Assembly: GCA_963930775.1 (NCBI GenBank)
Contig: OZ005689.1
Span: 27,850,044 to 27,914,043, forward strand
Length of the DNA: 64,000 bases
Reading direction: 5' to 3'
From: Cliona cf. orientalis
Lineage: Eukaryota > Porifera > Demospongiae > Clionaida > Clionaidae
Positions 7,483 to 59,040 of the stretch are shown one piece after another (position 1 is the stretch's first letter; every line of letters begins with the position of its first letter). The translations under genes and the position numbers were made by a program. The notes under the pieces are model-generated. The model did not search any database. It had not been told where the DNA came from and saw only the letters and a program-made list of their open reading frames with translations.

Positions 7483-7540
7483 AGAGGGCAACACAGGCTA
7501 CTTCGGTGTGTGTTTGTGTGTGTATTACTGTGTGTACCTT
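6950..7540. repeat. TG-rich minisatellite in an intron of copy A
   Basis: Irregular units such as TATGTGAGATGGCACTCGTATGTATGACATG, merging into (TG)n near 7445-7480. Long reading frames on both strands here are compositional artefacts. Copy B has TG-rich tracts in the equivalent intron at 30490-30890. Confidence 0.9.
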
Positions 7541-22522: not shown

Positions 22523-22664
22523 TTGGTCCTTCGAGCCGGATACTAACCTCCTTGGTCATATTTGTGAACTAGTTCTCTACTCGGGTCCCCCTTGTCGTAT
22601 TTCGTCGTTTCGTTCGACCACGTGTTCGACCGATAATCATCTTCTCTACTGTCGCCTATCGACC

Positions 22665-25600: not shown

Positions 25601-28600
25601 AGATTCATTGTACCACTTCCAAAGAAACCTGGAGTCAAGCAAATCGGTGAATCCAGGTCACAGGCCGTCCGAAGATTTCTCTCGTTCGAACGTTCGCTCC
25701 ACTCGAAGGGGCACTTCCAAGAATTTGAGTCGGTCATGGATGAATACTTTGAAGCAGGGCATGCTGAATCTGTGCCTGAAACCGACTTGGAGAAGCCTAC
25801 TCACAGTGTGTTCTACCTCCCTATTCATGTTGTCCGAAAGGAATCCAGCACGACAACTAAGATTCGGGCAGTCTTTGATGCCTCTGCAAGGTCTCTAACT
25901 GGAGTATCATTGAACGACATACTAATTGTCGGACCAACAGTCACCTCACCCCTCATCAATGTTCTGCTGCATTTTCGATTCCACCGTATCGCTCTGACTA
26001 CCGATATCAGTCGAATGTATCGTGCTGTCGCTCTTGACCAGTCTGACCGAGACTTGCATCGTTTTGTGTGGAGGAAAGATCCAAGTGAGCCTCTCAAAGA
26101 TTATCGTATGATAAGGGTCACATTTGGCGTTTCTGCGTCGTCCTTCATAGCCAACATGTGTGTCAAGCAAAATGCTATCGATCATGCCTCAAAGTACCCA
26201 CTCGCAAGGAAAGTAGTGGACGAATCCTTTTACGTTGACGACGGTCTGACTGGGGCAGATACTGTCGATGAAGCAGTCGAATTGCACAACCAACTGCAGT
26301 CACTGTTCAATGAAGGTGGATTTCTACTTCGTAAGTGGAACTCAAGTGATCCAACCGTGTTACAACACATCAAGCCAGAGCTTCGAGAGCTGCAGCCTAT
26401 TCACCTTATGCCTGATTCCCAAGAATATACGAAGACACTGGGGATCGAGTGGAATGTTGCTCTTGACCACTTTCGTATTACTATATCTGACCTACCCCCT
26501 CTCGATCACCTGACGAAACGTATGCTTGTATCTGACATAGCCAAGACGTTCGATGTCTTAGGCTGGGTCTCTCCAACCATCATCAAAGCTAAGATCTTCC
26601 TGCAGAAACTATGGGAAGAAAAGGTCGGTTGGGACGATCCTGTGCCATCAACCATTCGCCAAGCATGGTCGCAGTGGAGAGCTGAACTCAGCCTTCTTTC
26701 TGAACGACACATCCCGAGATGTTACTTTCCCAAAGATGCCACAATTGTGTCTGTACAACTACACGGATTCAGTGATGCCTCGGAGCAAGCTTACGCCGGA
26801 GTTGTATACATCCGTATGGTCGACTCTGCTGGCGGTGTACACACTTCCCTCGTCATGTCCAAGACTAAAGTAGCAACTATTAAACGACTCACCATACCAC
26901 GCTTGGAGTTGTGTGGAGCGCATCTACTTGCCCAGATACTTCATCATTGCAAAGAAGTGTTCTCTCTACCGCTAGAGGATGTGTTTGCGTGGACAGACAG
27001 TACAATCGTGCTCAACTGGCTCGTGGGCAGTCCACGCAGATTCAAAACGTATGTTGGCAATCGTGTCTCCTCCATCATGCAACTCATTTCTCCTGACCGT
27101 TGGAGCCACGTCAATGGCTTGGAGAACCCGGCAGACTGTGCCGCACGAGGTTTATTTCCCTCAGAGCTCTTGAACTTCGCCTTATGGTGGGATGGACCAA
27201 GGTGGCTCCGACTTAATTCGGATGAATGGCCTAAGCAATCTAATTTTCCACCAAATGACCCCTCACATGAAGGAGACGAAATATGTCTACACACAACCGT
27301 CGTTTCTCGCCAACCAGTCATATTGATCGATCGTTTCTCCAATTTCACTCGACTAATCAGAATCACTGCCTGGTTGATGCGTTTTGCTCGCAACTGTCGT
27401 GCCTCCAAGGAGAGTATCGCTCGAATTGCTGGTCCCCTCTCTGTTCAAGAGCTGAATCGAGCTAAATCGTATTGGATTTCCCTCTCTCAACGAACACACT
27501 TCGGAAAGGAAGTGAAACCTCTCGAAATGAAAGCTCCTATTTCGCAGTCTAGTCCTCTGATATCTCTTAATCCATTTCTGGACAAGGAACAGTTGCTACG
27601 AGTCAGTGGACGAGAAAGTAATTCCAAGTTATCATACGAAAACCAGCATCCGCTAATCATTCATGGTAAGCACCCCTTGACTAAACTGCTCATTCGCTCA
27701 GAACACACTCGCTTGTTGCATGCTGGTCCCACTCTCCTCACCGCTTCACTCTCACGTCAATTTCATATCATTGGATGTCGAAAGATCGTTCGATCAATCA
27801 CCCGTAGCTGTGTAACTTGTCGACGGAAGTCTTCAAGGCCTCAACCTCCAATCATGGGCCAACTTCCAATGGAACGTATCACTCCAGATGCCGTATTTGA
27901 CAAGGTAGGCATTGACTATGCCGGGCCAATCTACATAAAGCAAGGTTCTGTTCGTAAACCAACGATTCTCAAGGCATATGTCTGCGTATTTGTTTCACTT
28001 TCTGTCAAGGCTGTGCACCTGGAACTGGTGTCAGATTTAACCACTGATGCATTCATTGCCTGCTTGAGGCGATTTATTGGCCATCGTGGTAAACCATCCA
28101 CCATTTGGAGCGATCACGGATCCAACTTTATTGGAGCTACACGACAGATCAAAGAGTTAATTCAATTTCTTCAGCAACAAAAGGTTAACGAAACGATTTC
28201 CGAGTTCTGCTCATGTCAAAACATTGACTGGGTTTTCATCCCTGAACATGCCCCACACTTTGGTGGTTTGTGGGAGGCCGCTGTGAAGAGTTTCAAAACT
28301 CACCTCTCCAAAGTAGCGGACAACGTAAAGCTGTCATTCGAAGAATTGACCACCGTACTAGTCCAGATCGAAGCTTGTCTCAATAGCAGACCCTTAGGTG
28401 CCTTACCTTGTGGAGACAATGGTGTTGATGCGCTGACTCCTGGGCACTTCCTAATCGGACATCCGCTCGAAGCACTTCCAGACCCCTCTTTTTCATATCA
28501 GAAATTCTCTCTCCTCCGTCGCTGGCACCTGTGCCAAGCTCTAGTGCGGCATTTTTGGAAGAGGTGGTCCTCTGAGTATCTCACTACTCTCCAGAAGTTT

Positions 28601-28816
28601 GCTAAATGGCGTCGACCCACAAAGGATATCTCTGTTGGAGATGTAGTTACCTTGCGAGAAGACGGAATGGTCCCAACGAGATGGCCACTCGCAAGAGTTG
28701 TTGACGTACACACGGGACGTGATAGAGTTGTCCGAGTCGTAACTGTAAAGACTCGTGATGGAACTTACACTAGACCCGTAACAAAGATCGCTATGTTGAT
28801 CCCTTGTGAGCAGTAA
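22665..28816 (+). pseudogene. gag-pol: BEL gag-pol polyprotein, interrupted
   Basis: From ATG 22665: a helical N-terminus, then a DUF1759 Gag domain (LPKLDVPTFNGEILGWKTFW). At 23611 a TTAA-flanked MITE splits the frame. It resumes at 24270 (DGSGKELRRLHDT) and loses one base near 24425 between FEWQK and the ELLEFLDLRAQ segment. From 24461 it is open for 1451 codons: three Cys/His knuckles (24630-24830), a DUF1758-type aspartic protease (LLDSASSASFI, about 24990), reverse transcriptase (TTDISRMYRAV; YVDD at 26231-26242), RNase H (FSDASEQAYAG; AWTDSTIVLNWL), an integrase H-H-C-C zone (27710-27825), catalytic GIDYAG, SDHGSNF and HFGGLWEAAVK, and a C-terminal DUF5641 domain. Pol looks complete; the Gag lesions should stop translation of Pol. 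Confidence 0.93.
23612..24265. mobile_element. piggyBac-type MITE inserted in BEL gag
   Basis: Flanked by TTAA at 23608-23611 and 24266-24269. Ends are CCGATTATAGGCC and GGCGTATAATCAG, imperfect inverted repeats. Taking it out with one TTAA leaves CTT AAG GAT in frame across the BEL Gag. The interior has several GCGCCTATGGCG motifs near the right end and no gene. Confidence 0.9.
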
Positions 28817-29037
28817 GTTTGTTCACTCATACCAATTGAACTACTAACCTTGTATCATTCATTGTTAATTGTTTTTGTTAATTATGTTTGAATTTTGTCA
28901 ATGCCCTTGCTTATTGACATCCAGGTTATTGATTGCTTAATGGTTAGGGTTAGGTGTTATCTCTGAGATTGTTAATTTATTTGGATTTGTTAATTTGTTA
29001 AGTTTTGTCAAAGACCATCTGGTCTTGGCCGGCGGAA

Positions 29038-29214
29038 TGTTCACTGTTACTTTCGTTTGGTTGTGGTCGTCATAGTCACAAACACTACTTGTGTTGATTT
29101 TTGTTCAAATTTTCTCTCTCGCATAATAAGATTAAGTTTAGTGAAGAAGTGAAAGTGTGCATGGTCTAACTAGTAGTGTAAATCTACTCTAATCCGGTAG
29201 AGAACTCCCCAACA
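29038..29214 (+). repeat. 3' LTR of the BEL element
   Basis: Same sequence as the 5' LTR apart from one missing G. Preceded by the purine-rich GGCGGAA. The 220-base 3' untranslated stretch before it shows nothing else. Confidence 0.93.
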
Positions 29215-29289
29215 GTAAGTGCTCATGAAAGAGAGAGAGAGGGCCCCATGGCTGGAGTAATAATTAAGGCACGTACTGATATACACCCC

Positions 29290-32216
29290 TTCAAAGCTCT
29301 TTGTCGGAAGGGCTCATCAAAAAGCTTGCCCAGTCGTAAGTGGGAACGATCACCTTGCCGTCCTGAGTGCCAACGAGCTGAGCGTGATTCACAGCTGCTG
29401 ATGACTCTACCACTCGAACGATGATGTCATCGAGGCACCCAATTCTGGTTCTTCTGTATGCTTGCTTAAACAAGCCGAAACACCAGTCAGGTGAGAACTT
29501 CGTGTGTCCCACGATTAGGAATGACAGTGTGATGCTCCTGTTCAGGCCAGACAAGACACGCCATGCAAGATACTGCATGACGTAGCAATTATTATTCTGG
29601 CCTGAGCAGTTGTCAGCATGGAGGTGGAGATTGGCCAGAAAGTGGTGTAGCATACTTATAATATTGTTGGCTCCTTTCCCAGTGTTGACTGCCTCGTTAA
29701 TAAGATAGTTAACCTGCATTTATATGCCACATTAAAGTTGAAGATAATGCTTTGCTTTCTAATTAACTTGCACCTGTCTTGGTACCGCCTCACAGCACAA
29801 GCCAAAGATGGCACACTTGGCGTGGCGTGAGGAAGTACATAGGTCCTGGTTGTTGAGGGTCACTGGGATAATGCACCTACATGCAAGTTACATGTACATG
29901 TACTGGTAGTGTGTATTGAGATAACAAAGGACATACTTGCTGAGCCATACCAAAGCTGAAGTGCATTGTGATGTTGGTTGTAGGGGGCAGGCATGCATAG
30001 ATGGGAGGGACTTGGAGTTCGCCATCCACAGTGAAGGTTTCCTTCAGGGCCCCTTTGGATGTGTCAATCACACTCCTATAGTACGATCTCTCCTGGGTGG
30101 CCAAACGAACATGCGCCTCCGCATCCATTAACACCTGATGTTAGAACAAGTAAATTGGTGTTATCTGTGAACTGGTGTGATTGTTACCTGTGTCTTCTCT
30201 TCGTCAGGTGTGTTAGCAGATCTCATGATAGCCCTACTGTGTTGTTGACACACCCAACAGAGATCGGACACGGGCTTCATGACCATAACCTGTGGGGCCA
30301 GCTGTCGCCAGAGTCGACAAAAGGTGGTGTAGGCAGCTGCTTTAATGTTCGCCTCATCAGCTGACAGCTTGTACTGGACCCAAACTCCCTAGTTTGTACA
30401 GGTATGAATGCAAGGATAGTAAGTCTGTGTACATGTAGATCACATGACACATACAGTGTGCTGTATAGTGTTACAGTGACAGTGCATGCTCTTGTAAAAC
30501 TTGGTCCAGTTTGTGTGTGTATGTCTGTCTGTGTGAATGTGTATTGGGGGGGGGGGGGTAGTGTATGTCGGAGTGTGTGTGTGTGTGTGTGTGTCTGTGT
30601 CTCAAGTGTGGGGGGTGTACGTCTGTGTGTTGTGTATGGGGGTAGTGTATGTTGGAGTATGTGTGTGTGTGTCTGTGTTTTGAGTGTGTGAGTGTGGGGG
30701 GTGTACGTCTGTTGAGTGCGTGTGTGTATATCTGTGTGTCTTGAGTGTGTGTGTGTATGTAGGGTGTATGTCTGTGTGTATTGAGTGTGTGCATGTGTAT
30801 GTGTCGAGTGTATGTCTGTGTGCGAGTATATGTGGGGGTGTATGTCTGTGCGTGTGAGGGGTGTATTGCTGTGTGTGTATGTCTGTGGGAGTCTTGTACC
30901 TTCTTGGTTGTGTTAGATGGTAGTAGTTGGAGGTCGTCCCGTTTGTAGCCAGAAATCCGATCAGGGAGGAGGATGGCATTTTCCTCTGCGTAGTTAGATA
31001 AGAAGGCTACCAGGTTTTTGACCTCATCCAGCTTCAGTGCATGTTTTGGCAGCCTCCTTGTATTCCCATGCACTCGCATGGTCAACCCTGTAGCCAAGAA
31101 GCTAGCCTTTAGGGCCATGAAGCGATCTTTTCCTGTGAAGTACATAGTATTACTATAAGCATGTGCACTAGTTTGTGTGTGGGTGTACGTCTGTGTATAT
31201 GTGTGTGTGTGGGGGGGGGGGAGGGGGTGTGGGTGTATGTGTTGAGTATGTGTGTGTGTGTGTGTGTGTGTTAGGAGTGTGGGGTGTGGCAGTGTATGAA
31301 AACTTAAGTAGGTGTGTGTGTGTGTTGTGTGAGTGAGTACACATAATTCTTATACCTATTCCATGTAACTTTTGGAAGGTGGTCCTACAAATTCTTACTC
31401 CTCCATGGTAAAAAGCCATGTTGGAGCGCTGTCGTGCTTTCTTTGAGTTGGTGGCCTGGTTGTTGGAGAGTAGAGCAGATATCTGCCCTAGGAAGACGAG
31501 ATCTAGCTCGTCTCTGCTGAGCTCCTTACACTGCAGCCTCACGCTCTCATAGTGAGCTTGAGAAAACTGCGTGTAGCAAGGGTTGCCATCATTCCTTTTA
31601 CACCCACACCCTTTACCCAGGAATGCAGCAAGGTCAGCATCAATGTCGGCCTATTACAATTATACCATAGTATATGGCTAGCTTTGTATGTTGTATTGGA
31701 CTTTTATAGGTACCTCTCTCACTCCCTCTCTCTCTCCAGGACTCTCTCCAGGATTTGGAGTCGGGTCAGCTGTCGTCTCTTCAGGCTCAGCAGTAGGCTG
31801 AGAACGCTCAAGGAGCTCTGGTGGCACTCTAGTAGCAAGATCATCCAGGTCCAGCTCCCTGATCAATGGGTCATTACCACCATTGTCCCCATCATCAATA
31901 CCACCATCATAGAAACCTACAGCCATACTTTTGAGCATTATTATCATATTTTCGTTTGTTTTGTTTACCATTGAATTGAAAGAGAGAGTCTTCCTCCTCT
32001 TGCTCGTCTACAGCAAGTGGTATTGATTCGGTAAAGTGGGGTCAACGCTATAAGTCAGTAACTTACGTGAAGAATCATACCAGGGTCATCCCCACAAAAG
32101 AAGGTGTGGATAAAGTCCGTGAGGGCGGGGTCATCTGCACTGCCGACGTAGGTGCGGCCTTCTCGAGTCAACGCGTTCAAAAGCCGGGCAGTGTCTCTGT
32201 CTCGCGACGTGGACAT
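29290..32216 (-). pseudogene. DUF7869-like putative transposase, copy B (broken)
   Basis: Nine exons can be followed on the minus strand with GT-AG borders: about 32067-32216 (MSTSRDR...FFCGDDP), 31971-32035 (acidic), 31700-31925 (NDPLIRELDLDDL), 31373-31640 (a CGCKRNDGNPC zinc-like motif and ELDLVFLGQI), 30903-31133 (RVHGNTRRLPKHA), 30190-30395 (VSDLCWVCQQ), 29937-30133 (coiled coil, MHFSFGMAQQ), 29776-29880, and 29290-29713 with LHADNCSGQN and VGHTKFSPDWCFGLFK. Defects are an extra base near 29815, Gly where A, C and D have Asp (SFD-x-AQQ), and loss of the C-terminal 100 or so residues after YDWASF. Inactive, but the clearest exon map of the spliced form. Confidence 0.8.
30490..31335. repeat. 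TG-rich tracts in two introns of copy B
   Basis: 30490-30890 and 31180-31335 are GTGTGTGT tracts with GTATGTCTGTGTG variants. They lie on either side of the exon at 30903-31133. Confidence 0.9.
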
Positions 32217-32879
32217 AGCTCGCAAAGGACGATACAGACTGGTTCAGCTTTGGAAAGTCCTGAAGGCTGCTCAGCGCAGGTGGCGTTTACCCGCGCACGC
32301 GCGTTTCAATTAGCGTCCATGCCAACGCACTCCGTAAACTACGGCCGCTCACAGAGACCTTGCCCGATATGCCGGCACGTTCGAGCTTATTCTGCTCTTT
32401 CCACTCATGTCCGGGATTGCCATCAGTGTTCTCAGTTCTCCAAGTTCCCTACTTGGCACTTCACAAATATATCCTTCCTACCATACACCCTTGGATTTCC
32501 CTACTTCAGTGTATACCTGTAATCATTAGTTCCCAGCTCCCAAATACATACTCTAAGGTCCACCATGCACCTTGGGATTTCCCCCACTTTAGTCTAGTTC
32601 CCACTACACACACTAAGTAAATGCATCCCGAGATTTCCTCAGTTCCCAACTATACAGTCTATCCAAATTATATTATGTACACCCATCATACACTAAGGGA
32701 TTTCCCCACTTAGGTGAGTATACTCTTAAACCCTTCCCACTGCACACACTACCTAAGTACTTAGTATAATAACTATACAGGTAATCCTAACTATACCATC
32801 TACACCAATACACTTACGTACCATAGACCTGAGATTTCCCCACTAATGTCCTCAGGTGCCTCTCAGTTTGAAACTACCT

Positions 32880-33620
32880 AAGTATACCCTGGGATATCCT
32901 CAGCTTGGTGTACACAGGTAATCCTTTGTTCCCAGCTATACCTTCTACCCAAGTACACTGACCATACTGGCACCCAGGGATTTCCCCACTTCATGTGCCC
33001 CTCCGTTTGAAACTATAGACCTAAGTATATCCTGGGATATCCTCAGCTTGGTGTACACAGGTAATCCTTTGTTCCCAGCTATACCTTCTACCCAAGTACA
33101 CTGACCATACTGGCACCCAGGGATTTCCCCACTTCATGTGCCCCTCCGTTTGAAACTATAGACCTAAGTATACCCTGGGATATCCTCAGCTTGGTGTACA
33201 CAGGTAATCCTTTGTTCCCAGTTTTACCTTCTACCCAAGTACACTGACCATACTGGCACCCAGGGATTTCCCCACTTCATGTGCCCCTCCGTTTGAAACT
33301 ATAGACCTAAGTATACCCTGGGATATCCTCAGCTTGGTGTACACAGGTAATCCTTTGTTCCCAGTTTTACCTTCTACCCAAGTACACTGACCATACTGGC
33401 ACCCAGGGATTTCCCCACTTCATGTGCCCCTCCGTTTGAAACTATAGACCTAAGTATACCCTGGGATATCCTCAGCTTGGTGTACACAGGTAATCCTTTG
33501 TTCCCAGCTATACCTTCTACCCAAGTACACTGACCATACGCCCGGGGATTTCCCCACTTCATGTGCCCCTCAATTTGATACTATACACTCGACCTAAGCA
33601 CACCCTGGGATATCCCCAGG
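32880..33620. repeat. 143-bp minisatellite near the left end of the KDZ-like element
   Basis: GGGATATCCTCAGCTTGG recurs at 32891, 33034, 33177, 33320 and 33463, exactly 143 bases apart, and in a variant form at 33607. The region before it (32440-32880) has looser related motifs (GGGATTTCCCCACTT). Confidence 0.93.
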
Positions 33621-34132
33621 TTGATGGGTGCAGCTAATCCTTTCACCAGGCATTTCTGCATTTCTGTGTGTACCCTTAACCCAACTACACCTTGTGTAGT
33701 ATACCTACTGTACATTCTGGGGGTTCCAAAGCCATCCCACTTGATCCTAACTTTCAAGTACCTATCTGTATTTCTGATTTACAAGCTTCCAAATCAAAAA
33801 AAAATGAATATCACACTCCATACAGTGTGTTATTAATTCATTCAACAATAACTGAGTGGTTAGGGTTAGGTGACAATGCCATTCAGTTAAATGGCATAGT
33901 ACGTAACAATATATCTTCAGTGTGTACATACAATGTTCAAGCTGATAAACAAAATAATAGCTGCATGTACATGTTTGTTACACGTACATGCATGTCTCCA
34001 ACTGGCATCAATGTAAAATATAGTGATAAATATTCAATCAGCAATAATTAAACTAATGATTGTAACTGTTACCAGACTGAAGTACTTCCATAGCTAGAAA
34101 GTTGATATTAAACTCTTGCATTTAACATTCCA

Positions 34133-37100
34133 TTACTCGCCATCACTGACAGGTGGATTCGGTCGTCTTTTGTATGGGGAATTAGTATTGCGTTCAGAGA
34201 TCCTAATGTCACTACTTCCATCATCCTTTCCATCACTGAAACGAGGTTTCTTATTTGGAGGTGGATCACTGTAGTTAGGACACAAGCATGTAGGAATAAT
34301 TAAGTCAATACCTAGTTACTAACTCATACAAATAATAATATTATTATACACAACATGTATCATATAGTGTCCCGGGTAAGCACCCATGGGTGCTTAAAAA
34401 CATCTCATAATTTTGGCCCACATGGGTGCTTACCCTGGAATATCTTTGTATAGAAGCTGCTACATTGGCCCCTTGAAACGAGCCACATGGGAGCCCAGGA
34501 CACTACTGTAACTTAACTTACCAAGTTATCTCTTTCTGCTCCAGTGAAGTAGAATATGAACGCAATGTCACACCGAATTGGGCCAACTTATCAGCAAATC
34601 TGGCTTTTCCTTCAAGATTCTCAGGAATAGGATTCTTCTTGAATTCATATTTCTATGAAGAATATTCATAATTAACGCTTAGCCTACCTAGAGTAAACTT
34701 ATTGCATGATTACCATTGCAACGCCTCGAGAACTTCCAAGTTCAAGCAGTTTTCCAATACCTGCCTCCTCTAGTTTTTTGCAGGCCTCCAGGGCAGCAGG
34801 CTTGTTTCCCTTGTTCTTAAATTTTTTTGCTTTAACAACTGCACTGATATCTAATTTTTTTCCCTGGTAAAATAGCAGTATAGCCAGCAATGTCTGGATT
34901 GTCCAGTTGATGCTCTCTAACATCTATATTCAATTTAAGAAAGTTTGTATCATCATACATTAAAAATATCCCCCATCTAGAAAGCATAGATAATATTCAC
35001 TCAGTATGTCATTGTGTATTCTAGGTGCTGTACAGAATTTGATATGCTGTAGTTGATGCACTTCTCTACAAGGGTGTACATGTATGGATAGAATACCACA
35101 TGCATGGTGATAATTATCATCGCCTACTTAAAACAACCACAAGTGAGACACACAGTTAGCTATAGATCACTCAAACGTACCACATTCAGCAAGTTCAACT
35201 TCCTTTGCAATGGTTGACCTTCCAGCAATATAAGCTGCATGCTGAATGCTAGTCTGGACGAAGTCAATAGCTGCCCTCAAAGCTTGGTCAGACACTTCAT
35301 CCTCAACATTCACGTCCTCTACTGGAGCATCACCAGTGATTTGGAACAGTACATGCATTGCAGCTGCTATGCGGAGGCATTGACCTTTTCCTTTACTGAG
35401 CATTCCTATAAGGGTAATATGGATTGAGAATGAAAAGAAAGGGCAGAGTATGATACAATCATACACTTGAATATAGCTTAACTTGTTTTCAACACTAGTG
35501 GTGTTCTATATTGAGCACAATCTATATACTGTATAGCACAAAATTTTCGCTGGATAAAAATTTCGCTCAATGCTCATACTTTGTATTGGCACAAAAATTT
35601 CGCCGAATTTAATTTTGCCCACAGCGCGAGTTGCTCACCAGGAAGTAGTGGGTGGAGCTCTTGAATAAACACGCCACGCACGGGCCCGAACATCGCGTAC
35701 AGTGTGTATGATCCTCGGCACGATCGATCTCTCGCTTCTTTGTTTCCTTGGTCTTAGCTTGCTACACACCGTTGACAGCAGTGTTGGCCTCTGCGATGGC
35801 GGAAGGCTATAGCTTCGATGACAGGGGTCCCGCAGGATCAGACAAACCCGAGGTGTACTGTGGAAGTACGACAGTAGTGACATCAAGCTAGGCTTCAGAT
35901 CGAGAAAGAAGTCTCAAGAGGTTTTGAATACCAGGTAAAACAGCTGATTGATGATCATGAGGTACTACAACTACTAGTACTAGTACTGCTTGGCAGCCAC
36001 GTGTAAAAAATTTCAGTGTGACAAAATCTTCACTGGGTAAAATAATTCGCCGAAAAAATTTTCGCCCACGAAGCGCCTGGGCGAAAAAGGCGAAAATTTT
36101 CTCCAGGCGAAAATTTCCGGCTATACGGTATATTATGTACATGTGCACATATGTACACACAACTTCAACTTACAGCCTATTGTTAAAAGTAATTACTACC
36201 GTTCTTGCTATAATTGGGCTAGGTATGAAAGTAATGCTTACCACAAAGTAGCTCATCCATTCCTCCAAGTGCTCGCAATTGATGCTGAATCTGATTGTAA
36301 GTATCTTTGAATATTTTGCAATCCTTAGTAATATGGAAGACTCGTTTGTGTCATCAGCAGGTCTCCACTGCTTGCTAAGAAGATTCACTATAATAATAAA
36401 ATGGATATACAATGGTTACCACAATAACACATACAAAATCACTGCAGTAGATTAGCTAATTTGGCTACATGCAGCAAAAATTAAATTTCCAAATTCCACC
36501 ACTGGCCACCACAGGAGTAACCACAATGTTCATCAATATAGACTATTAGTTTTACTAGCAAGCCACATGTCTATTTAGTGGTTAGTAGTGTTGGGAGGTA
36601 TTATAGTGTTATCCACCAAACAGGGGGTAAGCACCCATGTACCATATTATTTGATGGGGTCATTGTAGTAGCTTCTATACAACATATGGAACATATATCC
36701 GGGTAAGCGCCCATGCAGCTTAAATTGTGGGTTGTGTTTAAGCACCTATGGATGCTTAGCCGAGACACTACGGTAACTAACATTTAATTATGCAGTTCTT
36801 ACCTAGAGCAGAAGAAAAACTTGGATCTACAGGTTCCAAAGTTTCAAAATCAGCATAGGTTGGTTTTGGAAATGTCCAGATGAACCGTTGAGATAAACCC
36901 TTCTCAGCATTGAAGGAAGCTCGATAATGCTTCTTGCCACTGTAGGCTGGGTAAAACCTCCAAGTGTGAGGTTTGTTGAAGCCATTGTAAAATTAGCTTC
37001 CCCAGTAACTGCAGATCGTAATACATATCAGTATATAATTAGCATTATACTGCAATAGTGATTATTATTACCTGTATTTCTGGTCCAGGGATACCCATTG

Positions 37101-37737
37101 TAGAGTTGAAGAAATAATGCTAGCTCGTGTGAATCAGCTAACCCTCTACCACGGTACAAATTTATTTGAGTGAGAAATGTTGTTAGTTCGTCATACATGC
37201 CAAGAATGCGGCTACCATTCTCGGACATCAATTCCCCCATTTTTTCGAAAGTGGCATCTTCAACCTGCCAAGCTGATTTATCACCCGTCTTGCTTCGTAT
37301 ATCCTGCAATAGCTTGGCTATATATGTACAGAGAGGAGACTTCCCACTACCAGTAGGCATGCATACACATTCCCAGATCAATACTGGCTCCTTCCAGTCG
37401 GTACCATCCACTTGGACCATTGAAGGGGACAAAAGAAATCCAGTAAGGCCTAACAAAGAGGATAGCACAGCTGTGGGAGGGATACTGAGTGCTTTCCCCA
37501 CTTGGATGCATCCCTGTTATAGTAAATATGAATAACTGATGAACACACCAGTATCTTATAGTTTGCTGCTCACAGTTTTGATCATTTCAGGATAAAGATT
37601 CCAGTCTATATCCTCAGACCAACATCTATCCAAACGTTTCCTGGTTTCCACTGTTTTTTTTCCAGTTAGCTTGGTCTGTTGCTGTCCTCCGAGATGGAGT
37701 AGATAGTGCCATGCTATTTATTTCACCACCTCTATTT
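34133..37737 (-). pseudogene. DUF3987-like P-loop protein gene of the KDZ-like element
   Basis: Eight exons with matching GT-AG borders: 37574-37737, 37072-37513, 36803-37008, 36242-36387, 35181-35405, 34714-34923, 34522-34652 and 34133-34268 (stop TAA). Exon 2 has a Walker A motif (PTGSGKS) and a YDELTTFL acidic motif, exon 3 GGFTQP, and exon 5 a helical LRIAAAMHVLFQI. In this order they fit DUF3987, a primase/helicase-associated ATPase family of phages and mobile elements. The tail is basic and Pro-rich (NKKPRF, YKRRP), like a nuclear signal. Single-base shifts occur near 36915, near 36330 and in an A7 run near 34858, so this copy is decayed or misread at homopolymers. The 5' end is unclear: no ATG in frame before the first exon. 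Its role in transposition is unknown. Confidence 0.65.
35527..36130. mobile_element. MITE with TACYGTATAGC termini
   Basis: Left TACTGTATAGCACAAAATTTTCGC matches the reverse complement of the right end (TACCGTATAGCCGGAAATTTTCGC). It is TA-flanked, with AAATTTTCGC motifs repeated inside both arms. Sits in intron 4 of the DUF3987-like gene. Confidence 0.85.
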
Positions 37738-39341
37738 CACTTTCTAGACCACTATCTTTTCAGGCTATAAAGCAGCTAGTACACTAGATAGCTCAGTAAA
37801 CTGCCATGTGCTCTAGATTCAGCCCATGTGATCAACTTGTGCTACTACCATGACCTTTGCTGGAGGTAATTACTGTCTGATAACACACACATCAAAGTAT
37901 TGATGAAATATTAACACTATGACAAGGTCAAAAAATATTGATGAGTCATCAGCACTCTAAAAAAAAAAAGTGGGTGGATAAATGGATCAAAAATATTAAT
38001 GATTGCATCATCAATACTTTGTGCACAGCCACATGCTTGAATTAGAAACATCATTCTACAACTTCGAGTAATATGGATACTTTCAGTGGCAACAGCCTGC
38101 TCCGTGAAGCGTCAAGGTACATAAGTGATACTTCAGTGCTCCGACGCCTTCTGTTCGCAGCAGCTACACTTCCCGAGGATACACCAAATTTTTGGGAAAT
38201 CGTGACAAAGTTTGCAGTTGCTAAAGGTACAAGTGTCCCTCTCTTCAGCCAGATCAAGCGAAGTTGGTTATTGATAACATCATATTCACTGATGAACATG
38301 TCTTGACCAGTGATGACTCACTGCAGAAAGAGCTTGCATACATGCCATATGGGAAAAAAGAACATGTAGGTGTTGTGTTAATGTCCAAAAAGAAGAGTTG
38401 CGTTGAATGTGGGGGAAAACTGCTGTTAAGAGCTGACCGTCCTAGTAATGTTACACTATACACTGATTCCTACGGAACACTTCCCGCTGCTCATTACCAC
38501 AAGTATTGCAGAAATCACAAGAAAGGCTGTGGCGTTGTTCAGTATTATGGATATCACACAAATGGGCTCTTTCAACTGCACTTTGATGATGACTGGGAAG
38601 TAAACAAATACTTTGTTTCGTCACAAGAATCGGCCTTTGAGCTTCAGCTGCTTTCCAAACTTGATGTTGAATTGCTTATTGGACAAGTGAGCTACAAGCA
38701 AAGAGCCGAGATATACAATGCAATTCATAATTATGAAGACGTTAAGAAAAAGTGCTCCATGAATGAAGATAATGAGAGTGATGCTTCAGATGAAGAGGAT
38801 TTGTAAGTGAAAATATAGTTTATGTAGTTTAATGAACTTATCACTGCTTCCTACCCTACCAGAAACGACCACAGACAGAAGCTTGACAGACGCAGACTCG
38901 AAAGTGCACACCTCAAGTATGCAATGTTGAAGACAATAGCTCAGTATCCAGATATGTACGAGCACAAGTGTGCTGTGATTAGTACGACAATAAGTGAGGC
39001 TCTCGATTCTGTTACCCCAAGATTTTACAAGGCATTTATGAGCAGATATACAGGTATCAGTTGAATTATACGTATGTAATAAAGTGTAGGCACAACCTCT
39101 TATTATTGGCATAATTATATGTCGTGACCAATCTCTTGTGGGGAGGGGGTGGCTTGGATCCTTCCTGAAACTCTCGATGATAATTATATCCCCATTAGCA
39201 ATTTACTACTCTGTGGTTGTGAGGTAATGATGGTGGAATGTAAGATAAAACATAATGTAATCTGTGAGGTAATCTAAGAGATAATTATTCAGGGCCTTGA
39301 TAGAGTCTGAGACTTAAAAATCATATATATTATATTATATA

Positions 39342-39818
39342 CAGTGGAACCCCTCTAAAGCGGACACCATTGGGACCAAAAATTTTGTCCGTTGCAGCGA
39401 GGTGTCCGGATCCTTAGCTCAGGGGTTAGTGGTTGACCATATCCCTCCTACAATCGTGGCCAGCTATGATAAAGCATTACTGTGGACGACGATAAAGACC
39501 GTATTGATGAGAGATCTGTCAACTGACAGCGTATAAGCAAGAATATGAGACATATTTAGGCTTTACTGTAGTTACTGGCCGACCGATTATAATGGTGGGT
39601 GTGGCCTAACTGTCCGTTATGCGAGGTTGTTCACTATTGCGCAGGCTCAAATGGGACCAAAGTAAGTGTCCATTATACGGAATAGCGGGGTGTCCACTGT
39701 TGAGGGGGTTTGAATGTATTGAAGTCTATGGAAATACAATCCGGACATACATTCAGAATTGTCCGTTATATCGCAGGTGTCCGCCGTTGAGGGGTGTCCG
39801 CTAAGCGGGATTCCACTG
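39342..39818. mobile_element. MITE with CAGTGGAACCCCTCTAAAGCGGACAC termini
   Basis: CAGTGGAACCCCTCTAAAGC and the reverse complement of the right end (CAGTGGAATCCCGCTTAGC) are inverted repeats flanked by TA. Inner GTGTCC-type units repeat in both arms. It splits an older repeat (39291-39341 and 39819-39930) that is related to 4117-4283. Confidence 0.88.
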
Positions 39819-40262
39819 TATATATTATGCATGCAGAGTACCTAACGCATGTATCCAGCAAATACTTAACAAGCTGTGTGCTACTTCCTCTGTCTAGTAT
39901 GGCTGGTCGAATTTTCTTGGCCTATGTAATCCAAATAAAACTCGTCTGTGTACAGTGTTATAATAAAGCATGCACGGATTCATACACATGCACACATAGT
40001 CCACATGACCAATTGAACTCTGTGACCAAAGCATCTATCACTATCAACGTCAAGAGTCGGTTTTAGATCCATTGGGGCATCCAACGCATCGACTATGTAT
40101 ACACTATATACCATAGTTAATAGAGTACAACGTATGATCCAATCTAATGTAAGAAATTAGCATTTTACGAATTCTCATAATGTATATAATTATATGGAGC
40201 AATTGACGACGCTTACCAGAAAAGCGCGCATCTTTCAAAATTGAAATTATTTTGTTTCCATA

Positions 40263-42793
40263 TGTGACAGTCCATAGGAAAAGGGTGTATTAGGGATATT
40301 TTGGCCAAATTGAGTTAAGTACACCTGGTGATCCCTTACCATGTACTAAATATAAAAAAATCATTTTGGAGGCATGCAAGTACACAGTGGTGGAGTAATG
40401 AGCCAAATTGTAATTTCCTGTCTACTTCCTCATGTACAGGAAGTCGCAAAAAATCAATAATAATACATTTGTACAGGCACAAAACAACATTCTACATAAA
40501 CTACCTATCAGGACTAACATTCTGCATAGACTACCTATCTGACCTATCTGGACAAGTTCTTTTGGTGTGTCCAACAGCATGACATAGTCCACATGTAGTT
40601 GTTCGTTTTCGTTTTCCTGTGATTGTAGAGCTACCAGTGGTATTCGAACTGGCCATAGTTGGGGTAGAGGGAGTTTGAGGTGCCGTTTTAGATGTTTTTG
40701 CTGTGGGTTTAGGTTGGGTGGGTCTGGGACAAGTGAGATCAGCAGCAAGAGCAGACTTGCAGTGCAATCTGATATTATCATACAAGTACCACTGCCGGGT
40801 AAGATCTAAACCAGGAATATCAGTTTCTTCTGGCTGACCTTTAAGGTCAGAGACTCGTACGTTGGGCTTCAAAAGCTTGATTTTCTCTTCGCTGGAATCT
40901 GAGTATTGCTTTACTGTGACTGTCCCATCAGTTGACACCTTAAAGTTATGGTATGAAGTGATGTTGGGGATGGTGCGGAAAAATTGACCGAGATATGTAC
41001 TCCATTGGTAAAATGTCACCAATTTCTTCCCAGCTACATCGCGGATAATCTGTGGAACAATCTGCCCTGATGTTGTTGCTCGCTCTGCAACAGCAGAAAT
41101 TTCAGCAAGGGTTGAGACTGAAGATCGACGAAATACCTTCTTGAATAAACCAAAATAACGATCAGGGGAAAATTTCGTGTGCCCCACCAGCATGAACGAT
41201 AGCTCAATGCTTTCTTCGTACCCATTCAACACCCTCCAAACAAGATACTGGATAGAAGCATTGTTCTTGTTTTGTCCTACACAATTATCTGCGTGGAGGT
41301 ACACACACTTTTTGCCATGGCTGTGTTTAGTGAAGTAGTGATGAAGGAGACTGATGACACAGTCAGCTCCCTTTCCCGGATTTTCTGCTTCATCAATGAG
41401 ATACAATACCATTTGCCGCTTTCCATCGTCGCTTACGCCAAAAAGCCCACATTTTCGAGCGGTTTTAAAGTACTCGGGCCCTGTTTGCTGTGAATCGTAT
41501 GGAAAATGAATTTGCTGCGCGAAGTCGTAAGAGTAGTGAGCTATCCTTGAACTCGATAATTGTTCTGCACTTTCAGCTGCTTGGACCTGACTCTTGTAGT
41601 AGTCACGTTCTGTTTTAGCACGTTGCAAATGCTCCTGAGCTGACTCAAGACGCTCAGACTTCTCTTCTTCTGAGAGGCAGCCTGACTTCTGAATTGCAAG
41701 TGAATTCTGTTGGCACGTGAAGCAAAGGTCTGAACTTGGAGTACTGATAGAGATATGAGGCAATAGTTCACTCCATAGATCGTAAAATTTACTCCTTCCA
41801 ACTGCCTCCCACTCATTCTTTTCACAAGCAGACTTGTACTTTGAATAAACTAAGGCTTTCGTCACGTCGGAGGGAAGAACTGTGGTCTTATCTCTGTGAC
41901 CAGGAACTCTACCTGGCAGTGGCAAGCCGTGCGCTCGAGCATAGTTAGTTATAAAAAGTGTTAGATGGTTGACTTCTTCAAAGGGGGTCGTATTATTAGG
42001 GAGACGCTTCGAGTTGCCGTGCTGTCTGGTATCTAAACCAACGTTATCAAAATGCTGAATCAAGTGCTCTAGGCGCTTGTGACCAACACAATGGAGAAAC
42101 ATGAATGTTTTTCGGCAAATCAAAACACCATGAATGTTGTATTTTGACATTGATCGATTGGCTGTCTTCTCATGATGGGACCTACGAAGGGTAGGTTGAG
42201 TATCCATACTACGACCTGCTCGAATTTGTGCGAGGATCACCAAGTCTAGCTCATCCCTGCTGAGTTCCAGGTTGTCAGCTCTACACTTTTCTATAGTCTG
42301 TTTACTCAAAAAGCTAGAACAAGGGGAGTCTCTAGGACCTAGCTTACACCCACAGGTAGACCGTATAAAATCTTCAACACTCCTTTGTGCCCTTTCATCT
42401 TCCATGCTATGATCAAAATTCACACTTGCCTCGAAACCTGGATCCTCTGAGAGAGAGAAAGACTCAGCACCACCTAGAGCAGGAGTAGAAGTGGTAGCTG
42501 GCTGAAAGAAGCGAGTAGAGCGAGGAGTAGTCGCGGTAAGACTTGCTGTTTCCATCGCGGGTTGGTAGTGGAGATAGATTTTGAAGCACAGGCAGGTGGT
42601 AAAATCTTCAAATTTAGCTGATCTAGGCATCAACAGAAAGCACATGGCCTGCTCTATGCAATGATGTCATTTTTAGGCTCATGTGAGCTTCCATGATGTC
42701 AGTACAGGAAATTAAACATTCTCGAACTTTAAACCCGTTTTTCTCAAAAACGTAAAAAATCCCTAATACACCCTTTTCCTGTGGACTGTCACA
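40263..42793. mobile_element. DNA transposon C, DUF7869-type, apparently complete
   Basis: Left end TGTGACAGTCCATAGGAAAA then GGGTGTATTAGGGAT; the reverse complement of the right end is the same apart from one C/T change in 35 bases. Flanked by TA on both sides (40261-40262, 42794-42795). At 2531 bp it carries one long minus-strand gene filling most of the interior, with 268 bases after the stop and 148 before the start. The well-matched ends and unbroken frame make it the youngest of the four copies and a possible autonomous element. It lies in intron 2 of the KDZ-like gene. Confidence 0.93.
40531..42645 (-). CDS. DUF7869-like putative transposase, copy C (intact, 704 aa)
   Basis: One uninterrupted frame. 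From the N-terminus: a Ser/Thr-rich acidic leader; a zinc-like motif CGCKLGPRDSPC (residues about 100-110); helices with ELSRDELDLVILAQI; an HTH-like stretch (CRKTFMFLHCVG, RQHGNSKRLP); LPLPGRVPGHRD; a C-x2-C motif (DLCFTCQQNS, about residue 310); a coiled coil (EHLQRAKTERDYY); then the RNase H-like core with YDFAQQIHFP, LIDEAENPGKGAD, LHADNCVGQNKNN and VGHTKFSPDRYFGLFKK. Near the C-terminus is a CCHC knuckle (CGLCHAVGHTKRTC). The core fits DUF7869, usually annotated as unknown. The Asp residues of FD-x-AQQ, HADNC and GHTKFSPD are my candidates for catalysis. In-frame ATGs at 42645, about 42628 and about 42555 are all possible starts. Confidence 0.85.
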   Translation of the reverse strand: MCFLLMPRSAKFEDFTTCLCFKIYLHYQPAMETASLTATTPRSTRFFQPATTSTPALGGAESFSLSEDPGFEASVNFDHSMEDERAQRSVEDFIRSTCGCKLGPRDSPCSSFLSKQTIEKCRADNLELSRDELDLVILAQIRAGRSMDTQPTLRRSHHEKTANRSMSKYNIHGVLICRKTFMFLHCVGHKRLEHLIQHFDNVGLDTRQHGNSKRLPNNTTPFEEVNHLTLFITNYARAHGLPLPGRVPGHRDKTTVLPSDVTKALVYSKYKSACEKNEWEAVGRSKFYDLWSELLPHISISTPSSDLCFTCQQNSLAIQKSGCLSEEEKSERLESAQEHLQRAKTERDYYKSQVQAAESAEQLSSSRIAHYSYDFAQQIHFPYDSQQTGPEYFKTARKCGLFGVSDDGKRQMVLYLIDEAENPGKGADCVISLLHHYFTKHSHGKKCVYLHADNCVGQNKNNASIQYLVWRVLNGYEESIELSFMLVGHTKFSPDRYFGLFKKVFRRSSVSTLAEISAVAERATTSGQIVPQIIRDVAGKKLVTFYQWSTYLGQFFRTIPNITSYHNFKVSTDGTVTVKQYSDSSEEKIKLLKPNVRVSDLKGQPEETDIPGLDLTRQWYLYDNIRLHCKSALAADLTCPRPTQPKPTAKTSKTAPQTPSTPTMASSNTTGSSTITGKRKRTTTCGLCHAVGHTKRTCPDRSDR

Positions 42794-42891
42794 TATGTAG
42801 TATTAGATTAGGTAGATGACTTCTATCACATCCACTATTATTACTATAGTAATGTATGCAGCTACTAGGGATATGGTACAATATTTCATAG

Positions 42892-43114
42892 TACCGTATA
42901 GCCGGAAATATTGGCGGGCATTAAATTTGGCGGTTGAGCCCCAAATCGCTATAAGAAGAATATTGGCGGATTTAAATTTGGCGGTTCGGTACGGGATCGC
43001 CATACGTATATATGCGAGTAGGAAATTTTGGCGGATTTTAATTTGGCGGTTGTAATATATAGACCGCCAAACCGCCAAATTTAATTCCCCGCCAAATTTT
43101 CCGGCTATACGGTA
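42892..43114. mobile_element. palindromic MITE, TACCGTATAGCCGGAAA ends
   Basis: Ends TACCGTATAGCCGGAAATAT and AAATTTTCCGGCTATACGGTA are inverted repeats. The interior repeats TTGGCGG and CCGCCAAA. Terminal motif shared with 35527-36130 and 60549-60756. Confidence 0.9.
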
Positions 43115-45229
43115 TAGTGTAATCAACACTTCAAACCTTCTGGTAGATACCAATTTGCTCAAAATTAAATGGCCATCTGAGATGTCTTAATTTCATACAA
43201 GCTGAACTTTCTGTAGAGTACATGTCTGGATAAAAATTATTTGATATTTATTATCTCAAACCCTTCCCAAGAATATTTACTTCTTGGATAATAAGAATGA
43301 ATGTTACAATGGTTGTCCCTACATTTCTTGCAAATATCGGACATCACAGATCATTGCTGCTCATATCCTGGATGTCAACTTGCTCTAGTGATTGATGGAA
43401 CCCAAAAGAATAGGAGAGCAGTTTGCATGGCATCAGAAGCAGGATATATAGAATATCCCAGCCTACGAGGATCAATCAAAACTGGTTGCATTAACAGTCC
43501 AGCGTATGTATCAAGATTTTGTTTGCAGCACTCTCCCAGATCGTGCGTAGCTAAACCCAGATATTTATCTGAAGATGATCTTGAAGGATCCGATGTGGAT
43601 AAATTGCATCACAGGACATCAGAAGATGGAGAGCCAGTTGTACACTTATTGCTAGAAAAGAAGACTACTCGTAGTGGTACATACTACAAGGTAAATTTGA
43701 GCATGTTACCAAATTGCTGGCATAAGTATATTATATCATCCCAACCCACGCGTGTGTGCAGGAGATAAAGCAGTCAGTTTAGCTGAATAGTATTATACTC
43801 TGTGGTGTTTCACTGCTTCTTCATTAAAATCAACATCATTGACATTATCAAGAGAATTAGCACACTCTTGACAGTATCTATTAACACTATAGGTTGCTTG
43901 GTTAGGCAGTCCTAACCTAAAGGTATCTTGGGAACCTGCCTCTAACCTCAAAGTGTGATAGACGAATATGAGCATGGAGAAGTTGTACAGGTGGATGATG
44001 ATGTTGATTTCCGATACGGAAAGATGGCGCACACTACAACAGTCGTCATGGAACAAATTCAAGGTTCTCCACAGAAAAAAAGGAAAACTACTCAATTTCC
44101 ACCAACATCTGGAACTGGGTAATTACATACTTAAATGACTATAATTTTATTTTTTAACTACAAATTAATCATTAATTGTCACTTATAGCTATTAATTTAA
44201 AACTTTATAATAGAGCTTTTTTGGATCAAGCAAGTGACAAAGACACACCTATAACCTGTAACACTGTTAAGGATAAAGGAATCCGTCTCAATTACATAAC
44301 AGCAGGTTGGTTCTTATGTAATTAGTTACATAATTGTGCTTATTTACATTTCTTTCTCCCGGATTCCCACACACAGGAATTCTTGCAGGTGCTAAGCCAT
44401 GTGGAATCATTGTGATTCTCTCAGAATTATTCCGAGCTGAGTCAATGTCCCAAGTGTACGCAAATTTACATCAATATTTTAGTGACCATCCAGCTGCACT
44501 CGAAAGATTAGGTACATTGTGATTTTTACAATCTCTCTTCATCTTCTCTCTCCATTTCTGTCCCCACCCTCCCTGTCTGAATTTTCTTCCAACATGACAG
44601 TCTTGTTCACACACACATACAATATGATATTATTATTATTGTAGGTTATGTAATTTATGATGATGGTTGCCATCTTCAAAGATATGCCCGAAACCCTTGC
44701 AGAGCTCATCTGACCAAGACAGCTGAAAAACTAGGGCAGGTACATTTTGTGATCGACAGAATGCATTTTAAAGGTCACACTGATGAGTTTTGCAAGTGTT
44801 CTTGTGATCCTAAACTTTTTCCGGACCTCGAAAATGTAAGCTGATACCATATAGTTAAGTCACTAAATGCACGAGTAAATATTATGTGCATGTATATCCA
44901 GGTAAACACTGAGATATGTGAACAGACATTTTCGTGGCTATCACGATACAGTCGCATTACAAGACACATGAATAGAACCAATTTTATGTTTTTTTATTTT
45001 GTATCTTTGTGATCTGCATAATCAAAGAGAGATTAAAAAACTCACTAATGCAAAATTTATGTAACTTTAGCATTACTAACATTATTATAACCACATAGTA
45101 TTGTCATTAAATTTATAGTATAGAGTCCTATTCATTGCATTTTATCAACATTTGTGTATCAGTGCAATAGAATGGCAAATTCACTGAACTGTAATTACAT
45201 AGAGTAGCCATAAGCAAATTATTGATAAT

Positions 45230-46330
45230 ATATACAACTGGGGAACAAGGCACAGCTTGGACGTAGGTATACAATTGGGTATATGGCATCCTTGCTTATC
45301 CTGAGATGGACCTAGTTCCTCTGTACAACTGGGGAACAAGGCACAGCTTGGACGTAGGTATACACACGGGTATATGGCATCCTTGCTTATCCCGAGATGG
45401 ACCTAGTTCCTCTATACAACAGGGGAACAAGGTTCAGCTTGGACATAGGTATACACACGGGTATATGGCATTCTTGCTTATCCCGAGATGGACCTAGTTC
45501 CTCTGTACAACTGAGGAACAAGGTACAGCTTGGACGTTGGTATACACACGGGTATATGGCAACCTTGCTTATCCCGAGATGGACCTAGTTCCTCTGTACA
45601 ACAGGGGAACAAGGTTCAGCTTGGACGTAGGTATACACACGGGTATATGGCATTCTTGCTTATCCCGAGATGGACCTAGTTCCTCTGTACAACTGAGGAA
45701 CAAGGTACAGCTTGGACGTAGGTATACACACCGGTATAATATGGCAACCTTGCTTATCCTGAGATGGACCTAGTTCCACTGTACAACTGAGGAACAAGGT
45801 ACAGCTTGGACGTTGGTATACACACGGGTATATGGCAACCTTGCTTATCCCGAGATGGACCTAGTTCCTCTGTACAACAGGGGAACAAGGTTCAGCTTGG
45901 ACATAGGTATACACACGGGTATATGGCATTCTTGCTTATCCCGAGATGGCCTCTGTACAACTGAGGAACAAGGTACAGCTTGGACGTAGGTATACACACC
46001 GGTATAATATGGCAACCTTGCTTATCCTGAGATGGACCTAGTTCCTCTGTACAACAGGGGAACAAGGTTCAGCTTGGACGTAGGTATACACACGGGTATA
46101 TGGCATTCTTGCTTATCCTGAGATGGACCTAGTTCCTCTGTACAACTGGGGAACAAGGCACAGCTTGGACGTAGGTATACACACGGGTATATGGCATCCT
46201 TGCTTATCCCGAGATGGACCTAGTTCCTCTGTACAACTGGGGAACAAGGGAACAAGGTACAGCTTGGACGTAGGTGAACACTCTGGTATAGGGCAAACAT
46301 TGTTTGTCCAGAGATGGACCTAGTTCCTCA
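45230..46330. repeat. 91-bp minisatellite near the right end of the KDZ-like element
   Basis: About 12 tandem copies of a unit containing GAGATGGACCTAGTTCCTCT and GGAACAAGGTACAGCTTGGAC; successive units at 45306 and 45397 are 91 bases apart. Two or three higher-order variants alternate. One copy near 45950 lacks part of the unit. Reading frames across it are artefacts. Confidence 0.93.
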
Positions 46331-46905
46331 AACTCCTTAAGGAAAAATCACACATATTATGTGGGTATATACACACTGGAGCTCTATCTGGCTATATTAT
46401 ATTCACTATCATAAACTGATATACCACATATTATAGGGAATTGTGGTACCTAGAGAGCCTAGAGTGCATGCATAATAATTTCATATATATGCTGAAATAG
46501 ATACAGTATCTGGAATGTGAACTGTGTGCATGCAATTTATGCACAACCTCCCCATACTATATAGGCTATAGTAGAGTTCAGTTTTGTACTAGGCCATAAT
46601 AACACTGCAAGACATGATGGCATGAAGTTAGGCTTCATAGCACAGTGCTTTTGCCATTAAAGTTTTAATTTTAAAATTGAGGAACAGAAGAAAAGTGGGA
46701 ACACTGATGGCAGATCTGGACAACCCTCGCTCTTTCCGTTGAGAACTACAGTCTATAACGCCTATATTGCGTAGATAAAAGGTCAGTCTATTGGTTTATG
46801 TTGATATCTCGGTTTTCATAACGTTTGACCGGTGACACTAAAAACGCCCATAGCCATAATAGTGTATGCGGATGATATGCCAGGTTTTCTCAGATCCGGT
46901 CACAT

Positions 46906-54188: not shown

Positions 54189-55140
54189 AAACAAATATGC
54201 GAGTTGAGCGATGCAGCACAGGATTGCGGCTCCAAAGCAATTCGTTATGTCAAGCTCTTTACCCATATTCACACACACGCACATGTACACTACTGTTCCG
54301 AATGTACCAACAGTGAACTGACACTGTAAAATATATAATAATTGTGAGCGAATTTGAGAAAAGGGCCCACTTCGCGCAAAAATGATTTTTGATTAGTGGT
54401 ATTACGTAAAAGTACGTTGAATTACCTACCTGTTGCACTTTGCTCGTCGTCGCTAGCTGCTTCTGTCATGGAGATATGCGTCCTCAAAGTCCAGGAGTGC
54501 GCGGAGAACGATTTCGAGAAAAACGCGATCAAACGTTGCACTTCCGGGTGAAATTTACATACTGTCACACTATACACAGAGTACAAAGTACAGTCTAAGG
54601 GCTGAATAATTATTGTTATCAGATCGAGTTAAGTGGATAGCTGCTATGTAGTTCTTCGTGTAGATAGGCTATTCTAAAGCCATTGTTACACCATGGAGAG
54701 TGGACGCTGGGAGAAGGCCAACTATCGGTGTGCTTCATTCAGAAAGCGCTCAATCGATGTTAATGCTGGGGGGAGCTTATGAAACTGGTAAGTAGCATGA
54801 GTAGCTAGACACTGTTGCAACGAATGATTGTAACAGCTAGCTACTATGTGAGAGGGAGAGGTAGTGCATGTGTGTGTAGGGGGGTCTGTGTGCATGCAAT
54901 TTACCTGTGGGTGTGTCTTGTCCCTGTAGTAATGAATAACCATCGATGGGTGCTTGTAAAACTAGACCCCATTGATTGTAACAGCTAGCTAGCTAGCTGC
55001 TAGTGTGTGAGAGGGAATGTGTGTTGGGGGGATCTGTGTGTGCATGTAAAGTGCCTGTGGGTGTGTCTTGTCCCTGAAGCAATGAATAACCATTGACGGA
55101 TGCTTGTGAAGCTACACTCTATTGCAGTGTGTGAGGAGAC

Positions 55141-55892
55141 TCGGGCGAGTTAAGGACTGGGACCAGCAAAATTTTACTGTTTTTACCACGTCTTGAAAGC
55201 ATAGTTACAGCAAATTGAAAAGTAATGAATGTGACAGTTATCCCAGGTTCTTCAACCTTTGATGTGGCTAATGATACTCCTTTTAGCCCCGCCCATCAAA
55301 CCGCAACGGCCCCACCTCCATTTTCGTGGAAGCACTTCAGTCAACATGGATCAGCTAGGCGGTGAACTTCTCGGCCATGGATGAGCTAGATAGCCATAGT
55401 AGTAGTTTCTTACTTCGATTTATAACATTTTTGTCGTTTGCAATTTTTAAAATGACCGTTCATTTGGCAGAGAGAGGTGAAAATCAACAAAAGTGCCACT
55501 CCCACATTCTATTTAAAGCCTTCTTTTGAGAAACTGGAGGGGTAAGTTAAAAATTGCAAACGACAGATCTTTAGATATTACTACGTAAGTACTATGAGCG
55601 ATAGAACTCGTCGAACCATCTTGTTCCAACACCCCGCCTAGCACAGTCTACCTATTCCTATACTTCACTACTAGCGGGTGTGGCTTAGGTCACATGACCT
55701 GTCAGTTAGCTGCTCCAGAATCGTCATTCAGAAGGTCTTCTACTTGGATGAATCATTGATAAAGTCAAAGAATTATCACATATGTACTGGATTTTCGGTG
55801 TAAAATTTGTCGATCTGGGAGATAGCTGTGCGGTGGGCGGGGACCCTGCTATGAATATCATTATCGCGCGGGTCCCAGTCCTTAATGCGCCT
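55141..55892. mobile_element. small TIR element inside D
   Basis: TCGGGCGAGTTAAGGACTGGGACC at the left matches the reverse complement of the right end (AGGCGCATTAAGGACTGGGACC). The flanks GAGGAGAC and GAGGAGAG suggest an 8-bp duplication with one change. No coding sequence. Confidence 0.65.
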
Positions 55893-56384
55893 GAGGAGAG
55901 ACTTGTGTGTACACAATTTACCTGTGGGTGTACCGCCCTGTAGCAATTGACACTGATGTCCACGCTGGAAACACTTGTGAAACTGGTAGGTATCTAGACC
56001 CCATTGCAATGAATTAAAACAGCTACTTTGTGTGTATATTCGAGAGCCAGAGTGTGTATGTGTGGGGGGGGGGGGGGGGAGGGGGGACCCTGTATGTATT
56101 TACCAATGGGTGCTATATAACAGATGCTTGTACCAGCTTCTCCGGGGATGATAGTCCATATTGTATCCGAGTACATGCCCAATGTAGGTATAGTATTAAA
56201 ATATCAACCAGTGGGTTCAAGAGCCATGGCAATCTCTGTTTTAACTACTTTGAGTAAGGATTTGGGGGTGGGGGAGGAGGGATAAACACGAGATACACAA
56301 GATACAATGAAATAAAAAATCGAGTTACTTGTCTGGGCAGCTCCTCCCATCATGGCCCACAGCGTGACAAATTCCACATGTTCT

Positions 56385-58713: not shown

Positions 58714-59040
58714 ACCATACCATACCGTAGCATATTGTAGTAGATGCCAGCGATTAAGCGCTAAGTACTTCCAAGTACTAGCTTGTGCATAGTATTATTA
58801 GTACTTACCTAGTCCGTGCACGCGGAGATAGATTGAGAGAGGGCTCTATTTCGAAGCTATCGTTCGAATGAAGACAGCCGTTTCTGGATTCGAAATTTCA
58901 CCAGAAGGTGAGGAAAGGATCGTAGATAGTTATGTCATAACCTCAGTTTCCCGGATGTATGACCCGGGCGCCTATATACACGCGTACTGAAAATTTTTAT
59001 AGTGCGCAAAGTGGGCCCTTTTCTCAAATCCGCTCACAAT

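Follow-up and report, generated by a model that had tools for sequence, protein, structure and literature searches.

A 64,000-nucleotide stretch of the genome of the sponge Cliona cf. orientalis (contig OZ005689.1, positions 27,850,044 to 27,914,043; hereafter the window) carries four related elements, A to D, with genes for proteins of the DUF7869 family. The transposase of each element is very probably its DUF7869 protein, as the initial annotation of the window had proposed. This conclusion is drawn from the linkage of gene and inverted ends, 4-bp target duplications, empty sites, gene-less copies, and a predicted RNase H core with a triad of conserved acids. We consider it highly probable that DUF7869 is the catalytic domain of an RNase H-like transposase with three catalytic aspartates (DDD), and that the elements are of the Sola type, nearest to Sola2.

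Structure of element C

Element C (2529 bp; 40264..42792, minus strand) has the ends 5'-GTGACAGTCC...GGACTGTCAC-3', with termini of the form 5'-GTG...CAC-3', and lies between two copies of its target duplication, ATAT (left copy 40260..40263, right copy 42793..42796). The initial annotation had placed C at 40263-42793 (2531 bp); the element is real, but that span is 2 bp too long because one base of the duplication was included at each end. The inverted arms match at 95% over 44 nt, flanks included, and inverted-repeat comparison bears out the reported match over the first 35 bases with one change. A 20-base end motif, allowing up to three mismatches, occurs three times in the window against 0.02 occurrences expected by chance.

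The unbroken 704-codon frame that had been reported for C is present as the putative transposase gene (704 residues; 40531..42645, minus strand), and no second frame of at least 200 residues lies within the element. Pfam matches DUF7869 to residues 401-581 of the product (E 2.2e-20; 40903..41445, minus strand), in agreement with its earlier description as DUF7869-like. Near the C-terminus, a zinc-knuckle-like CX2CX4HX4C motif can be read from the sequence (residues 685-698; 40552..40593, minus strand), and the same spacing recurs in the aligned L045, L047, L048, and L049 proteins, where L numbers denote loci.

Linkage of gene and ends across the genome

A search of the 216.8-Mb genome with DUF7869 gave at least 165 matches. 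Twenty gene loci, for which long open frames were the main selection criterion, were examined together with flanks of about 4.5 kb. Inverted repeats enclose the gene at 19 of them, scoring 19-42 versus 13-17 for other repeat pairs at the same loci. Two groups are distinguished: group I comprises C, D, L040, and L045-L050, and group II comprises L031-L039 and L041-L044. They are about 20% identical, as judged from four aligned group II rows; DUF7869 is matched by both group I and all three group II proteins scanned, and 4-bp duplications are found in both groups. The L031-L036 copies are nearly identical from end to end (4-14 differences per about 2550-2600 aligned bases), and their end motif (up to two mismatches) has 11 places in the genome, every one of them at those six elements.

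Related ends also occur without the gene. The end motif of element B (one mismatch allowed) has 1132 occurrences in the genome versus none for a reversed control, and 15 end pairs about 630-680 bp apart are present among the sites listed. Ten of these gene-less miniature copies were fetched, and all 10 are flanked by 4-bp duplications (ATAT in nine, ATTT in one).

Most of the DUF7869 matches listed are on contig C1 (37.5 of 216.8 Mb), mainly beyond 16 Mb, which may reflect a repeat-rich or non-recombining chromosome region.

Target duplications and empty sites

Duplications were counted in 22 elements: 19 fetched from the genome, C, D, and a 626-bp element of the window at 61624. Identical 4-base sequences stand on both sides of 19 of the 22, in exact register with GTG...CAC; 2000 shuffled flank pairings, self-pairs excluded, gave a mean of 6.5 and a maximum of 12. 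The duplicated targets are ATAT (12), ATTT (3), ATGT (2), GTAT (1), and AATT (1). The AWWT form is therefore seen in 16 of these 19 duplications, from which ATGT and GTAT deviate, and in all 10 miniature copies, and every target but one has the form ANNT.

The initial annotation suggested comparing copies with empty sites. The 19 joined flanks were searched against the genome as one query, which gave 62 matches from the 40 candidates scored; among these matches, the junction is spanned for seven of the 19. Fifteen sites were fetched, aligned, and viewed over about 30 bases on either side of the junction. For six duplication-flanked insertions (L037, L038, L039, L041, L046, and L048; 13 sites), the paralogous empty sites contain the target once, and no base is added at the junction. 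The target differs by one base at the empty sites for L037 and L039 and at one of three for L048, and two of the four L046 sites show a gap of 3 bases that lies a few positions left of the junction. For L034, which has no duplication, both sites deviate from the joined flanks by junction gaps and changes.

B, C, and D had been described as lying between inverted repeats that start with TGTGA(C/G) and adjoin TA or AT. Both ends of each were found, but two points of the description do not hold: a terminal T is rejected as part of the element, as the base outside CAC is G in L039, and a 2-bp TA duplication is rejected because filled and empty sites show 4 bp (e.g., ATTT, GTAT). As a separate observation, L035 and L043, neither of which has a duplication, adjoin an AAATT-type microsatellite on the left flank.

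Predicted fold and catalytic triad

An RNase H fold had been singled out in the initial annotation as a feature whose absence would count against a transposase. AlphaFold models of DUF7869 proteins contain such a core of strands and helices, and VIA-align lists 50 structural matches, all of them to DDE/D transposases or integrases. In the C protein, the putative catalytic residues are Asp374 in YSYDFAQQ on strand 1 (41524..41526), Asp453 in HADNCVGQN after strand 4 (41287..41289), and Asp495 in GHTKFSPD before the last core helix (41161..41163), all on the minus strand. The triad spacing, D-(77-82)-D-41-D with a first interval of 72 in one protein, is conserved in groups I and II and in bacterial relatives. 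All 22 distinct proteins with the three motifs keep the 41-residue interval; L037, L095, and one D fragment are rows with an incomplete motif set and are outside this count. The predicted models thus combine the RNase H core of DDE/D transposases with three conserved acids at matching core places.

A sequence search of solved structures returned five matches to a PAS-domain protein over 80 residues (E 0.0019-0.003), which we took as chance, and a profile search of solved structures gave no match.

Bacterial relatives and a third group

With the group I profile, 12 loci were found in genome records of bacteria; the eight best show 33-39% identity in the best segment, over 540-607 residues. Inverted repeats surround the gene in eight of the 12, the two repeats being 2.0-2.7 kb apart in seven. 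Exact 4-bp duplications, read by eye, flank L086 (AAAT), L090 (AATT), and L096 (ATTT); L087, L088, L091, L092, and L094 have no exact duplication, yet their flanks are ANNT-shaped. Next to L088 (Desulfocicer vacuolatum DSM 3385) and L087, the neighboring genes that were scanned appear bacterial. L093 comes from a bacterial bin of a sponge symbiont and may, as a guess, be host DNA. The family is rare: among 395 genomes sampled from the phylum to which L088 belongs, a single one, the seed, contains DUF7869. No relatives were detected in viral contigs by protein scans, a pattern scan of these gave no places, and phage records gave no match.

A 22-protein tree separates group II from group I plus the bacterial proteins by a branch with 100/100 support; the same tree resolves neither group I nor the bacteria as one group.

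A third DUF7869 group (L001-L016 and neighbors) gives the best scores against DUF7869 in the genome search. Its genes are apparently multi-exon, with the motifs DGMDQ, LQLDN.RENKN, and VGHTHEDIDQ, and its copies are dispersed, several being 90-99% alike.

Other elements in the window

Element D (4694 bp; 54344..59037, minus strand) has both ends and an AATT duplication, with its DUF7869 gene at about 56328-58250. Element B (25.1 kb; 21797..46903, minus strand) has 29-bp ends with one mismatch, a DUF7869 gene copy at about 29273-31623, and nested insertions, and C sits within its span. The initial annotation gave no coordinates for the ends of B; the pair 21797/46903 is our assignment. No ends were visible in the first scans because they are 25 kb apart, and it was a split gene that revealed them: B interrupts a piggyBac-type transposase gene or pseudogene, the halves of which lie at 21014-21796 and from 46904-47172 onward and match positions 1-160 (left) and 146-239 (right) of the Pfam model DDE_Tnp_1_7. 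Between the left end of B and its gene copy is a BEL/Pao long terminal repeat (LTR) element (22345..29214, plus strand), with GTAAG on either side and LTRs of about 178 bp that are 99.4% alike. Tandem repeat arrays occupy 32774-33643 and 45233-46329 within the span of B.

Element A (4565..8062, minus strand) comprises a left end, at 4565, along with degenerate pieces of the gene (about 5.1-8.1 kb), consistent with the homologous gene and left end first assigned to it. The left end resembles that of B over 281 bp (68%). No right end was found for A, the best end-pair scores being no higher than those of control regions. The 626-bp element (61624..62249) has related ends and an ATAT duplication, and is too short for a transposase gene. 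We also note Gypsy-like retrotransposon frames (gag, reverse transcriptase, RNase H, and integrase) at 9836-14646.

Relation to known transposons

The elements probably do not represent a new superfamily; most likely they already bear the name Sola, with Sola2 the nearest, and the novelty most likely lies mainly in the link between the names DUF7869 and Sola. A review describes Sola elements as having a DDD transposase, 4-bp duplications, very variable ends, and a size of mostly 2-9 kb, and as occurring in bacteria and metazoans (PMC10741241). Repbase places Sola1-3 in one superfamily (PMC4455052), and the AT-rich 4-bp duplications given for Sola2 are of the form AWWT, e.g., ATAT, AAAT, and ATTT (PMC3627910). 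As far as these descriptions go (PMC10741241, PMC3627910), the present elements agree with them in the DDD triad, the 4-bp duplications with their AWWT preference, the inverted ends, the size (2.5-4.7 kb), and the presence in both bacteria and a metazoan. There are two differences to set beside these traits: the ends start with GTG in the eukaryote and mostly with GGG in bacteria, and the ATGT and GTAT targets stray slightly from AWWT.

Sola membership is suggested by traits taken from published descriptions. This leaves some room, though not much, for the view that DUF7869 elements form a separate DDD superfamily that came to share AT-rich 4-bp duplications with Sola by convergence. The low identity of groups I and II is in keeping with such a view, as are two negative results: there was no relevant family among the NCBIfam matches of the five proteins tried, and a literature search by the word DUF7869 found no paper. 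The number of traits that fit Sola and Sola2 together, from triad to host range, makes it unlikely. We are equally doubtful of its fuller form, a D-x78-D-x41-D superfamily of its own, with at least three diverged groups in this animal genome and with free-living bacteria carrying it as compact insertion sequences that NCBIfam does not match. If that were true, the position of group I and the bacteria together across a fully supported branch would point to transfer between domains.

Other named systems fit less well. piggyBac targets TTAA, which differs from the duplications seen here, none of which is TTAA (0 of 29; 19 elements and 10 miniature copies). Ginger proteins match rve and have a DDE rather than a DDD triad; unlike Ginger1, the C protein does not match rve, even with E values up to 1 allowed. 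Likenesses to Ginger1 are the 4-bp duplications described for that group (PMC10045372) and the RNase H-type catalytic domain. Tc1/mariner elements such as Mos1 are described as duplicating a 2-bp TA (PMC10741241) rather than 4 bp, and Tc1/mariner is absent from the Pfam families listed for the C protein. The L040 protein has a weak Pfam match, below the cut-off, to DDE_Tnp_ISAZ013 (E 0.034), recalling Zator and ISAzo13, but Zator duplications are given as 3 bp (PMC10045372) versus 4 bp here.

Proposed mechanism and alternatives

In the mechanism we propose, the DUF7869 protein would bind the inverted GTG...CAC termini not only of its own element but also of shorter copies, excise the element, and integrate it at another, AT-rich site with a stagger of 4 bp, after which host repair would yield the 4-bp duplication. 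We infer the cut-and-paste chemistry and the action in trans; DNA would presumably be bound by the N-terminal and zinc-knuckle parts.

Several observations weigh against a DUF7869 transposase acting in this way. L050 showed no ends by the inverted-repeat search used (one of 20 loci) and A showed one; the initial annotation held that gene copies lacking such ends would refute its proposal. No GTG ends were seen at the similarity breaks viewed in the third group, within 3.3-kb loci and without a systematic end search. Duplications are missing at L034, L035, and L043, and are exact in just three of the eight bacterial elements. The reading frame of the split piggyBac gene at B is better explained by an overlap of 2 bp than of 4 bp, unless an ATATAT run has lost one AT; this is the sole site opposing 4 bp. 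As for the fold, Foldseek alone gives no match below E 0.001 and also lists other RNase H-fold proteins, among them UvrC and Argonaute, as well as NurA. L044 has Glu in place of the second Asp, and the first site of group II was assigned by motif and is one column off in the alignment.

Since the chemistry is inferred and elements can carry cargo, the DUF7869 protein might instead be a passenger, the elements being moved by another transposase. This is very improbable: C offers no other frame of 200 residues or more, the other frames listed for L031-L035 and L040 (the three longest of at least 150 residues per locus) lie outside the element, the predicted fold is of the transposase type with a conserved triad, and the domain is paired with inverted ends in two diverged groups and in bacterial elements. 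The idea that these are host genes beside unrelated miniature elements can be set aside, and the evidence on groups I and II contradicts it: the apparently multi-exon third group was not followed to its ends and two of the four gene copies in the window lacked an end pair in the first scans, but the paralogous empty sites join both flanks directly, so that gene and ends move together, and the L031-L036 copies agree from end to end, with an end motif found nowhere else.

Implications

The label "unknown function" now attached to DUF7869 proteins could be replaced by that of transposase. If they are transposases, their genes should be masked as repeats and excluded from host gene counts. Should the link to Sola prove true, Pfam would gain a name for the family and Repbase a profile. 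The bacterial copies, as a simple form of the group, would lend themselves to experiments on its chemistry.
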